Source: Sulfurimonadaceae bacterium
GTDB taxonomy: Bacteria; Campylobacterota; Campylobacteria; Campylobacterales; Sulfurimonadaceae
Reading direction: 5' to 3'
Assembly (NCBI GenBank): GCA_016744905.1
Contig: JADGDM010000025.1
Span: forward strand, 1 to 37,583
DNA length: 37,583 nucleotides
In this document: positions 2,179-6,273 of the stretch, piece by piece
How the letters are laid out: each line of letters opens with the position of its first letter
Position numbering within the stretch: position 1 is the first letter of the stretch
Position numbers and translations under genes: made by a program
Notes under the pieces: generated by a model
Database searches by the model: none
What the model was told of the DNA's origin: nothing
What the model saw: only the letters and a program-made list of their open reading frames with translations

Positions 2179-2210
2179 AAAAGATATTAAGCCATCAAGG
2201 CTTCAATATC
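2177..2210 (-). terminator. Intrinsic terminator of pepP, overlapping its stop codon
   Basis: On the minus strand an 11-bp stem (arms 2199-2210 and 2183-2193, loop 2194-2198, one bulged base at 2204) is followed by a run of six T. The arms contain AAGCC/GGCTT and GATATT/AATATC. The pepP stop codon (2187-2189) lies inside the stem. The plus-strand gene ends 5 bases before the hairpin, so it may also gain some 3' protection from it, although there is no T run in that direction. Confidence 0.75.
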
Positions 2211-3479
2211 TTCTACATTCTTCACAATAGACTTTGATAAATTTTCATTGCCTTCTTTGGTCACTAAAATATCATCTTCAATACGAATTCCAATACCTCT
2301 ATATTTTTTAGGTACCTCTTTATCATTAGCATTAAGGTAGATACCTGGTTCTATGGTCAAAATCATTCCTTTTGCAAAAGGAATTTCATTACCCTCATCA
2401 TCTCTATACGGACAAGGGTCATGAACATCTAGTCCCATCCAATGCCCTATCCCATGTGGATAATACTTTTTCTGTTTTTTTTCTTTGAGTATCTCGTCTA
2501 AATCGCCTTTTAAAATACCCAAATCTAACATCCCTTGCGCCAAGAACCGCTCACTGGCATCTTGAATATCTTGTTTAACAATACCTGGTTTAATCATCTC
2601 AATAATACGCAGTTGTACATTCAAAACCATTTCATAGACCTCTTTTTGTGCAGGCGTAAACTTTCCATTAACCGGGAAAGTACGTGTCACATCAGAGGCA
2701 TAATAGTTATATTCACTTCCTGCATCGATTAAGACCAAGTCACCATCATTTATCTTTTTATCATTTAATATATAGTGTAAAGTGTTGGCGTTATTTCCAC
2801 TAGCGACAATAGTTGTATACGCATCCCAATACGCCCCATCACTTTTAAAACTTTTTTCTATGCGCGCTTGAGTTTTATATTCGTAACTGTTTGGCTTAAT
2901 TTTTTGCATCGCAATATGATGGGCATTTTTAGTAATCATCACCGCTTTTCGCATCTGTTTGATTTCATTTTCATCTTTAACAAGTCGCATCTTTTGGACA
3001 ATACTCGTGATATCTAAAAAGTTTTTTACACTTCTAGTGCGCCCCTGAGAAAGTGTTTTAGCCACACGTTTAGCCGTTCTTGTTGAAGTTATTTCAGAAT
3101 AAAAATCTAAATAAAGATCATCAACATCTAAAAAATATTTACCTAGCTTACTCCCAAGTGTTTTAATATCAAAACACTTGTCAAAACCTAATGTTCCAGC
3201 GCGCTCAGTCCCCAAACGTTCTCCCGTCCAAAGTTCCATCTGCTCATTACGTTCCGTCAAAAATAGATAAGATTTTATTTTATTGTTTTTCTTGAGTAAA
3301 ACCATGCAGGCATTATCCTCCTTGAAGCCACTCAAGTAGTAAAAGTTACTGTCTTGTCTAAAAGGAAATTCTGTGTCATTTGAACGTTGTTTTAGTGCAG
3401 CAGAACTTAGAACTACAACCGCATCATTTTTAAATTCTTTAAGAAGTTTTTTTCTTCGTTTACTATATATTTTATTCAT
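2187..3479 (-). CDS. pepP: Xaa-Pro aminopeptidase (aminopeptidase P, M24B)
   Basis: 430 aa, normal length for aminopeptidase P. It removes the N-terminal residue from peptides whose second residue is proline, using two divalent metal ions in the cytosol. The AMP_N domain occupies about residues 3-135 (NDTEFPFRQDSNFYYLSGF is typical) and the pitta-bread catalytic domain about 170-410. All five metal ligands are visible: D252 and D263 (LIDAGSEYNYYASDVTRTFP), H346 (HGIGHWMG), E377 (IEPGIY) and E401 (GIRIEDD). Its start overlaps the stop of the upstream 90-aa gene by 4 bases (ATGA), so they form a two-gene operon that ends at the terminator built over the stop codon. Confidence 0.95.
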   Translation of the reverse strand: MNKIYSKRRKKLLKEFKNDAVVVLSSAALKQRSNDTEFPFRQDSNFYYLSGFKEDNACMVLLKKNNKIKSYLFLTERNEQMELWTGERLGTERAGTLGFDKCFDIKTLGSKLGKYFLDVDDLYLDFYSEITSTRTAKRVAKTLSQGRTRSVKNFLDITSIVQKMRLVKDENEIKQMRKAVMITKNAHHIAMQKIKPNSYEYKTQARIEKSFKSDGAYWDAYTTIVASGNNANTLHYILNDKKINDGDLVLIDAGSEYNYYASDVTRTFPVNGKFTPAQKEVYEMVLNVQLRIIEMIKPGIVKQDIQDASERFLAQGMLDLGILKGDLDEILKEKKQKKYYPHGIGHWMGLDVHDPCPYRDDEGNEIPFAKGMILTIEPGIYLNANDKEVPKKYRGIGIRIEDDILVTKEGNENLSKSIVKNVEDIEALMA

Positions 3480-3748: not shown

Positions 3749-3801
3749 TTAAGTGCCTTTATTAGCTTAGTATTTTAAACTAAACTACTTATGTTAACTT
3801 G

Positions 3802-3807
3802 TATAAT
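3802..3807 (+). promoter_or_regulatory. -10 box TATAAT placed for a leaderless mRNA
   Basis: A perfect TATAAT lies 6 bases before the ATG at 3814. Transcription would start at or within a base of that A, giving no 5' leader. No ribosome binding site is visible before the ATG, which agrees with leaderless translation. There is no clear -35 box, as usual in Campylobacterota. Confidence 0.5.
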
Positions 3808-3813
3808 CCTGCC

Positions 3814-4539
3814 ATGCAAAAAATAATTATTAATAATAAAGATTATGGCTCAATAGAGCTACCAGAAATTAAAGAAGCTAAGAAAATATTTGAAAGACTA
3901 ATCAGTGTTTGGAAGAAGAGACAACCTATTCATATCGGCTATCTTTTAACGAGAAAACGTCAGCATGAACTTAAGGGTTACCAAAAAGGTGGCGCACGTG
4001 ATGAGCTTGCCTTACTTGAGATGTTTATCACCCTAGGCGAGATTTTACGTTTTAAAACCACTGCGGCGCAAAAACTCAAAGAGAGTATCGAGCACATCAA
4101 TGATCAAGCCCATGTGAATCTCAATATTTCAAAACGACTGGAACTTTTTAACAAAAAGAGCGAATCAAAAACGAACAAAACATACCTATTTTGGGATATA
4201 GAAAATTTCTCAAATGTAGGACCCATGTTCTCACATATCATTGAGCCTTTTGAGATAGAAGATGAACACATCTATATCAGTGCCAATCCCGATTCCCTCT
4301 ATCTTTTCAAACGAGAGTGGGAAGCAGATCTGTATGATTTTGGAAAGACACTAAATTCATTTAACTTCACCAAGTGTGATCATGGAAAAAATGTAGCCGA
4401 TACCGTTTTACTAGAGGATTTTAAAAAACTAAAACTACAAAACTCTACTATCTATCTTGTCACCTACGACAGAGAGTTTAAAGAGTTGTTTAAGAACATC
4501 TGTCATAAGTCTAATAATTTATATATTATTGGAAAGTAA
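3814..4539 (+). CDS. NYN/PIN-like nuclease domain protein
   Basis: 241 aa from the ATG at 3814; an in-frame TTG at 3799 would add five residues but lies on top of the TATAAT box, so I prefer the ATG. The C-terminal half (about residues 122-241) has the NYN (PIN-like) nuclease pattern: TYLFWDIENFSN with D128 and N131, an acidic D196 in NVADTVLLEDF, and D219 in LVTYDREFKELF. Such acidic residues bind Mg2+ in this superfamily and cleave RNA. The N-terminal half (1-115) is helical, basic and unrecognised; it may bind the substrate. The SRAP gene follows after 14 bases and is probably cotranscribed. The RNA target is unknown. Confidence 0.7.
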   Translation: MQKIIINNKDYGSIELPEIKEAKKIFERLISVWKKRQPIHIGYLLTRKRQHELKGYQKGGARDELALLEMFITLGEILRFKTTAAQKLKESIEHINDQAHVNLNISKRLELFNKKSESKTNKTYLFWDIENFSNVGPMFSHIIEPFEIEDEHIYISANPDSLYLFKREWEADLYDFGKTLNSFNFTKCDHGKNVADTVLLEDFKKLKLQNSTIYLVTYDREFKELFKNICHKSNNLYIIGK

Positions 4540-4553
4540 GTAAAGGGACGTTA

Positions 4554-5255
4554 ATGCCAGGACGATTGTGTATGTTTGATGATGTCGCTTTTAAACAAGA
4601 CATCGCAGAAAAGTTTGGGGAGTTTCAAGATAGTATTGATACCTTAAATAAGCAGTATAACATTGCGCCCACCTTAGATATCGCTATCTATACCAATACC
4701 AAAGTCTATACCTACGCACATTTTGGGCTCATACCCTCTTGGGCAACGGAACGTTCCAGTATGCAGATTAATGCACGAAGTGAAACGGTGTTTGAAAAAA
4801 GTAGTTTTAAAGAAGCGTATAAACAAAGAAGATGTCTCATCCCCCTTAATGGTTACTTTGAATGGAAGAAAGATCCAACAAGCAAAAAAAGCAAAGCGCA
4901 TTTTATCATATCCAATAGTGGAGATTATTTTGTATTTGCAGGCATCTACGAATCGTGGTATGACAATACACTGAACAAACCCATACTCACCTGCGCGCTA
5001 CTGACAACAGAACCCAATGAAACAATAGCAACACTACACGAGCGTATGCCTGTGATCCTAGAATCACACCAATGGGAACTGTGGTTAGATGCAAAAAGTA
5101 GCTATATACAGCTAAACAGACTTTTTATCCCAATACACAGTGATAAAATAAAATACTTTCGCGTGAGTGAGCAGGTCAATAGTGTCAAAAATGACAGCGT
5201 AGCGTGTATTGCTCAGGAGTTAACAACAGAACCTAGACAAGGGACACTTTTTTAG
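4554..5255 (+). CDS. SRAP / HMCES-YedK-like abasic-site protein, Pro in place of Cys2
   Basis: 233 aa. SRAP proteins shield abasic sites in single-stranded DNA by a covalent link through Cys2, exposed after Met removal. Seen here: YNIAPT (35-40), FGLIPSWA (58-65), N73 in INARSET, E103 in GYFEW and H162 in LHERMPVIL, matching E. coli YedK N75, E105 and H160. The N-terminus however reads MPGRLC instead of MCGR, so the nucleophilic cysteine is replaced by proline, with a cysteine at position 6. The start is well supported by AGGGACG just upstream and the conserved GR following. The change could make the protein inactive, or could let the proline secondary amine do the chemistry, as in Fpg/Nei glycosylases. 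It sits 14 bases after the NYN gene and converges on arfB with a 4-base gap. Confidence 0.9.
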   Translation: MPGRLCMFDDVAFKQDIAEKFGEFQDSIDTLNKQYNIAPTLDIAIYTNTKVYTYAHFGLIPSWATERSSMQINARSETVFEKSSFKEAYKQRRCLIPLNGYFEWKKDPTSKKSKAHFIISNSGDYFVFAGIYESWYDNTLNKPILTCALLTTEPNETIATLHERMPVILESHQWELWLDAKSSYIQLNRLFIPIHSDKIKYFRVSEQVNSVKNDSVACIAQELTTEPRQGTLF

Positions 5256-5730: not shown

Positions 5731-6273
5731 ATGTACATAGAAATGAAACAAAAAGACATCCGTGTCTTAAAAGAGAAAATTTGGCGGATGAATAATAAAA
5801 AATGTCCAGTCCTCGGAAAAGATATTGCACTTGATAAGATGGTACTTGATCATGCACACAAAAGAAATGATGAGGAGTACTCACCTACTAAAGGTGTTGT
5901 CAGAGAGGCACTTGATAAAAGAGCCAATGCTATTTTGGGTAAGGTGGAAAATGCACTTAAGAGGACAGGTTTAGGGTATGAAGAAGATTTTGATCTGCCT
6001 ACATTTTTAAGAAATGCGGCTGATTATTTTGAGAGAGGTGCCTATGTTGATGAGAGTGGTGATATGTATGTGCATCCCAGTGAAGTACCAAAAGAACCTA
6101 AACTTAGTAAAAGCAACTACAATAAACTTCAAAAACTCTACGATAAAGAGCTATTTGTAGCTACGCGAAAAGGTCAAAAGAAAAAAACTATGCCGAAGTA
6201 TCCTGCGAGTAAAAAGCTAACAAAAGAACTTAAAGAGTTGTTTGAGAAGTTTGATATTTCTCCTTATAATTAA
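5731..6273 (+). CDS. Endonuclease VII-like (T4 gp49-type) nuclease, zinc ligands mostly lost
   Basis: 180 aa. The N-terminal 85 residues follow phage T4 endonuclease VII, which cuts Holliday junctions and branched DNA with a beta-beta-alpha metal site. Visible counterparts are D40, H41 and H43 in VLDHAHKRN, and N66 in REALDKRANAILG, matching T4 D40, H41, H43 and N62, then VENALKRTGL matching the following helix. In T4 a zinc is held by two CxxC pairs; here only C25 (KKCPVLG) remains, the second pair being replaced by DKRA. The lysine-rich C-terminal half (about 105-180) has no recognised fold. GGAG lies four bases before the start. No other phage gene is nearby, so this is either a domesticated phage gene or a resident nuclease. 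Activity is inferred. Confidence 0.72.
   Translation: MYIEMKQKDIRVLKEKIWRMNNKKCPVLGKDIALDKMVLDHAHKRNDEEYSPTKGVVREALDKRANAILGKVENALKRTGLGYEEDFDLPTFLRNAADYFERGAYVDESGDMYVHPSEVPKEPKLSKSNYNKLQKLYDKELFVATRKGQKKKTMPKYPASKKLTKELKELFEKFDISPYN

Follow-up and report, generated by a model that had tools for sequence, protein, structure and literature searches.

Introduction

Fpg/Nei enzymes use an N-terminal proline to make a Schiff base with abasic (AP) sites, and the resulting iminium is prone to elimination. In mycobacterial Nei2, Pro2 is essential for AP lyase activity on single-stranded DNA (ssDNA), Met1 is absent from the structure and a P2C variant, the reverse of the swap described here, is inactive as an AP lyase (PMC11323726). 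A peptidase or sensor role was considered possible when SRAP proteins were first described (PMC3765255). Their cysteine at position 2 was called 'absolutely conserved' and 'always the second amino acid' in 2013 (PMC3765255) and 'invariant' in 2022 (PMC9436759). In E. coli YedK, Glu105 and His160 open the abasic sugar, the N-terminal amine then makes a Schiff base and the thiol closes a thiazolidine last; Glu105 is the general acid/base for ring opening and Schiff base formation, and the first nucleophile is the amine, not the thiol (PMC9436759). A YedK C2A mutant forms the imine rapidly and cleaves AP-DNA, i.e. it is an AP lyase, with a lyase rate ∼30-fold below that of imine formation (0.05 versus 1.7 in the units of that paper). 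The crystal structure of its borohydride-trapped adduct was determined (8D2M), and trapping with borohydride had succeeded with earlier C2A and C2S mutants as well (PMC9436759).

Published accounts of SRAP are built on an invariant Cys2 and the near-permanent, protective crosslink that it provides, and a clade with proline at this position is a natural experiment. In the open literature searched, no description of a Pro2 SRAP was found. Here, we describe such a protein from a Sulfurimonadaceae genome and the clade to which it belongs.

Results

A SRAP protein with proline at position 2

The window (the whole stretch of DNA analysed, 37,583 nucleotides) encodes a 233 aa protein (MPGRLCMFDD...QGTLF) at 4554..5255 on the + strand. 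The open reading frame starts with ATG CCA GGA CGA TTG TGT (4554-4571), translated as M-P-G-R-L-C, and the stretch from the preceding stop to this ATG contains no other ATG, GTG or TTG in frame. A likely ribosome-binding motif (AAAGGG, 4542..4547, +) lies within the 20 bases upstream of the start (AAGTAAGTAAAGGGACGTTA). The protein matches the SRAP profile PF02586 over its full length (model 1-214 of 214; 191 bits against a cut-off of 27.1; E 2.3e-56), and it is the only SRAP in its 3.0-Mb genome. An AlphaFold model (pLDDT 86.6, pTM 0.86) has the SRAP fold: at E<0.001 a fold search returned SRAP structures only, including BT_1218, with 2f20, HMCES and YedK as the best PDB matches, and the model aligned to 8d2m, the Schiff-base complex of YedK C2A, with a TM score of 0.74-0.79.

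Codon 2 (CCA, 4557..4559, +) encodes the proline, which is expected to become the N-terminal residue once Met is off and which replaces the cysteine of other SRAPs. The remaining active-site residues are in place. Alignment with E. coli YedK and human HMCES put N73, E103 and H162 within the expected motifs NARSE, GYFEW and HERMP (H-x-RMP). Asn73 (4770..4772, +) corresponds to YedK Asn75, which positions residue 2, and is invariant in both groups of SRAPs described below (39/39 Pro2, 32/32 Cys2). Glu103 (4860..4862, +; YedK Glu105) is likewise invariant in both, and His162 (5037..5039, +), the equivalent of the general acid for ring opening, YedK His160, is present in 38/39 Pro2 and 32/32 Cys2 proteins. 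The first-pass annotation, which had read this gene as a SRAP with Pro2 for Cys2 and N73, E103 and H162 kept, was therefore correct on both points, with the missing H162 confined to one deleted copy elsewhere in the clade.

Pro2 is fixed in a single Campylobacterales clade

We collected orthologues from the window's family (228 genomes), a phylum sample (397), an order sample (399), a second family, f9 (104), and the GTDB contig collection. Across all of these searches, every same-type SRAP with a readable N-terminus carries Pro2 (40/40), followed in each case by Gly3. The start codons are ATG (30), TTG (5) and GTG (5), and among 39 non-identical sequences the proline is encoded by CCT (24), CCA (10) or CCC (5). 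A frameshifted extra copy (L027) also begins MPGRL. Scattered residues at position 2, the outcome that the first-pass annotation had named as fatal to its idea, were thus not found, as expected if the proline has a role. Chance or sequencing error as the origin of Pro2 was rejected, since 40 orthologues carry it.

Residues G3, R4, Asn36, N73, R75, E77, E103, W104, H162 and R164 are conserved in the Pro2 clade as they are in Cys2 SRAPs, with the exception of one Pro2 copy that has an internal deletion. In that copy (L046 1498-2073, and L174; genome G529) an in-frame deletion takes out the His162 region, and the protein is probably non-functional. Several positions changed and became fixed together with Pro2, among them Leu5, which is F/Y/V in other SRAPs, Phe13, His56, Ser62, Met70 and Ser76. 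Pairwise dN/dS against the window gene was 0.05-0.12, ratios that are approximate because dS is near saturation.

These data bear on two other readings of the locus. A decaying or inactive paralogue, or an artefact, could be suspected from the deletion in L046/L174 and from a few further broken copies; we regard this as very improbable, given Pro2 in 40 sequences, the low dN/dS and the fact that the Pro2 copy is the sole SRAP in nearly every genome with one. For the clade as a whole, decay is already refuted by this conservation and by the intact active site. It is just as improbable that another cysteine, Cys6 or Cys94, has taken over from Cys2 as the crosslinking nucleophile. Cys6 lies near the N-terminus of the window protein, and the first-pass annotation had proposed it as an alternative nucleophile, but residue 6 varies among the 40 Pro2 SRAPs (A 15, S 12, C 9, V 4), so Cys6 was rejected in this role. 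Each of 14 diverse Pro2 SRAPs has Cys94, but this residue occurs in Cys2-type SRAPs as well (L006, L008 and L029), and in either case a thiazolidine requires the thiol on the same residue as the free amine.

The hosts of Pro2 SRAPs are Campylobacterales of Sulfurimonadaceae, Sulfurovaceae and f9, the last taken to be Arcobacteraceae. Named members belong to Sulfurimonas and Sulfurovum, and one record filed as Arcobacter was placed in the window's family. SRAP genes are patchy, being present in 16/228 genomes of the window's family and 30/104 of f9, and in these two families a genome almost never has two. A 75-protein tree places the Pro2 SRAPs in one clade (support 100/99) that needs one change and that stays single when the first ten residues are left out. 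Its closest relatives are Cys2 SRAPs of the same family. The simplest history is therefore a single replacement of Cys by Pro that was strictly retained afterwards. Cys2 is present in other SRAPs from this order, six of them from the window's own family, and was found in all 32 SRAPs compared and in every viral SRAP whose N-terminus is intact (70/70; 62 and 8 from two scans). These viral scans gave no Pro2 form, and in the search for plasmid- or phage-borne Pro2 forms no match reached 60% identity. Pro2 SRAPs were not found outside Campylobacterota, where sampling was thin and the one scan of a genome collection used patterns from close relatives, so that further Pro2 or non-Cys2 SRAPs may occur. 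Broken remnants of Cys2-type SRAPs (L048, L171-L177) were seen in other Campylobacterales genomes, e.g. G372 and G697.

On the sequences compared, Pro2 is fixed in one clade in which the other SRAP active-site residues are kept. Such conservation indicates that the proline matters, not why.

Repair genes and genomic context

The Fpg/Nei N-terminal domain was detected in 0/26 Campylobacterales genomes tested, 20 of them with a Pro2 SRAP, and in 8/14 control genomes. Since the other 6/26 have no Pro2 SRAP, the absence of Fpg/Nei does not track the Pro2 gene. Other enzymes probably deal with AP sites in duplex DNA, since the window genome encodes two HhH-GPD proteins and an endonuclease IV-type protein; ssDNA would be the natural niche of a Pro2 SRAP.

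We found no fixed neighbour or operon partner across the clade, only patterns within sub-lineages. In the window, an NYN-domain protein gene (3799..4539, +; PF01936, 5.5e-6) ends 14 bases short of the SRAP start codon; this neighbour is not conserved across the clade and is a possible operon partner in the window genome only. In four Sulfurimonas genomes a gene for a RecD2-type helicase lies directly upstream of the Pro2 SRAP in the same direction (L120 5753-7990; L122 8640-10877; also L119 and L121). The two intergenic gaps that were measured are 13 and 16 bases long, and the helicase match, at 471.6 bits, is slightly under the 500 that NCBIfam sets as cut-off. Most f9 genomes have uvrC nearby in the opposite, divergent direction, and in other genomes of the clade a hydrogenase-maturation protease is upstream. 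The RecD2 and uvrC neighbours are suggestive of repair, though not constant.

Two further window genes were noted. An Endonuclease VII-like HNH protein is encoded at 5731-6273 (+; PF02945, 1.3e-5), and a close copy occurs downstream of the Pro2 SRAP in L007/L118 with other genes between. A gene for an Xaa-Pro aminopeptidase-like protein (2187-3479, −) lies ∼1 kb from the SRAP gene and is not a conserved neighbour; its product could in principle remove Met before Pro, and its proximity is probably coincidental.

Discussion

We consider it probable that the window protein is a natural, selected N-terminal-proline SRAP acting on ssDNA AP sites through an Fpg/Nei-like imine, most likely as a lyase. 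A stable thiazolidine crosslink is chemically impossible for a Pro2 SRAP, which lacks the Cys2 thiol, and with proline in 40/40 members the clade does not belong to the thiazolidine-forming Cys2 type of YedK and HMCES. Judged by its residues, the clade has everything that ring opening and Schiff base formation require, and the thiol alone is missing. Proline followed by glycine after Met makes a good substrate for methionine aminopeptidase. This enzyme would take off Met1, and the conserved proline codon at position 2 together with a removable Met is what the sequence of an N-terminal-proline AP lyase should contain. By analogy with YedK, Glu103 and His162 would then open the abasic sugar in ssDNA and the secondary amine of Pro2 would attack C1′ to give an iminium (Schiff base). 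As no thiazolidine can close without the thiol, the iminium would proceed either to β-elimination (AP lyase, as in Fpg/Nei) or to hydrolysis back.

The imine chemistry suggested in the first-pass annotation is therefore plausible, as the amine is the first nucleophile in YedK and C2A gives a Schiff base and lyase activity, and the sequence would suit a lyase as well as a reversible enzyme. We prefer the AP lyase outcome because YedK C2A behaves in this way and because the permanent positive charge of a proline iminium favours elimination. The C2A rates (lyase ∼30-fold slower than imine formation) make a long-lived imine possible. Pro2 SRAPs might, then, be reversible shields: the iminium would stay in the pocket and revert by hydrolysis, and the ssDNA AP site would be protected with no lasting crosslink and little cleavage. 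Such a shield would retain the protective role of SRAP, and the residues that hold the N-terminus and the DNA (Gly3, Arg4 and Asn73) are unchanged; imine formation by C2A is also much faster than elimination (PMC9436759). We nevertheless think it rather unlikely, because AP-DNA is in fact cut by C2A, and from established Fpg/Nei chemistry elimination should be at least as easy for a proline iminium.

The loss of the crosslinking thiol, together with the possible peptidase or sensor function first put forward for SRAP (PMC3765255), would also suit a non-covalent binder or sensor of AP sites or ssDNA, with Pro2 kept just for N-terminal processing or shape. This we hold to be improbable: Glu103 and His162, whose counterparts YedK requires for ring opening and the imine, are invariant (one deleted copy is without His162), and Ala, Ser, Thr or Gly would permit Met removal too, yet Pro alone is found.

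Returning to the imine-forming lyase, we lean slightly towards an evolutionary account in which SRAP acquired an Fpg/Nei-type proline device independently and once, in Campylobacterota, and so went from suicide crosslinker to turnover AP lyase or reversible cap where Fpg/Nei was not found. If true, a protector of ssDNA AP sites has been remodelled in lineages without detected Fpg/Nei, and unrelated folds would offer a clear example of convergence in active-site chemistry. Cys2 has been replaced clade-wide by the residue famous elsewhere for abasic-site imine chemistry, which bears on whether SRAP is of benefit only through the crosslink or whether capture as an imine, or controlled cleavage, is enough. 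Annotation of Pro2 SRAPs as YedK/HMCES-like crosslinkers is likely to be wrong in mechanism.

In comparison with known systems, the Pro2 proteins share with E. coli YedK and human HMCES full-length homology, the fold, the Asn, Glu and His residues, the DNA-binding Arg residues and a small single-domain architecture, and differ in that Cys2 is proline throughout, precluding the thiazolidine, and in Leu5 and the other clade-specific residues (F13, H56, S62, M70 and S76). YedK C2A (8D2M) resembles them in having the SRAP fold and an N-terminal amine without a thiol; it is, however, a laboratory mutant with the primary amine of alanine, whereas Pro2 is natural, fixed and a secondary amine. With Fpg/Nei enzymes such as mycobacterial Nei2, which is active on ssDNA (PMC11323726), the expected common feature is a mature N-terminal proline as the Schiff-base nucleophile, on an unrelated fold. 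The window protein has neither the Fapy_DNA_glyco/H2TH sequence nor the fold of that superfamily; its only Pfam match is SRAP, with none to PF01149, and therefore its likeness to Fpg/Nei would be convergence, not membership. By fold, the window protein is a SRAP; it belongs neither to the Cys2 thiazolidine type nor to Fpg/Nei.
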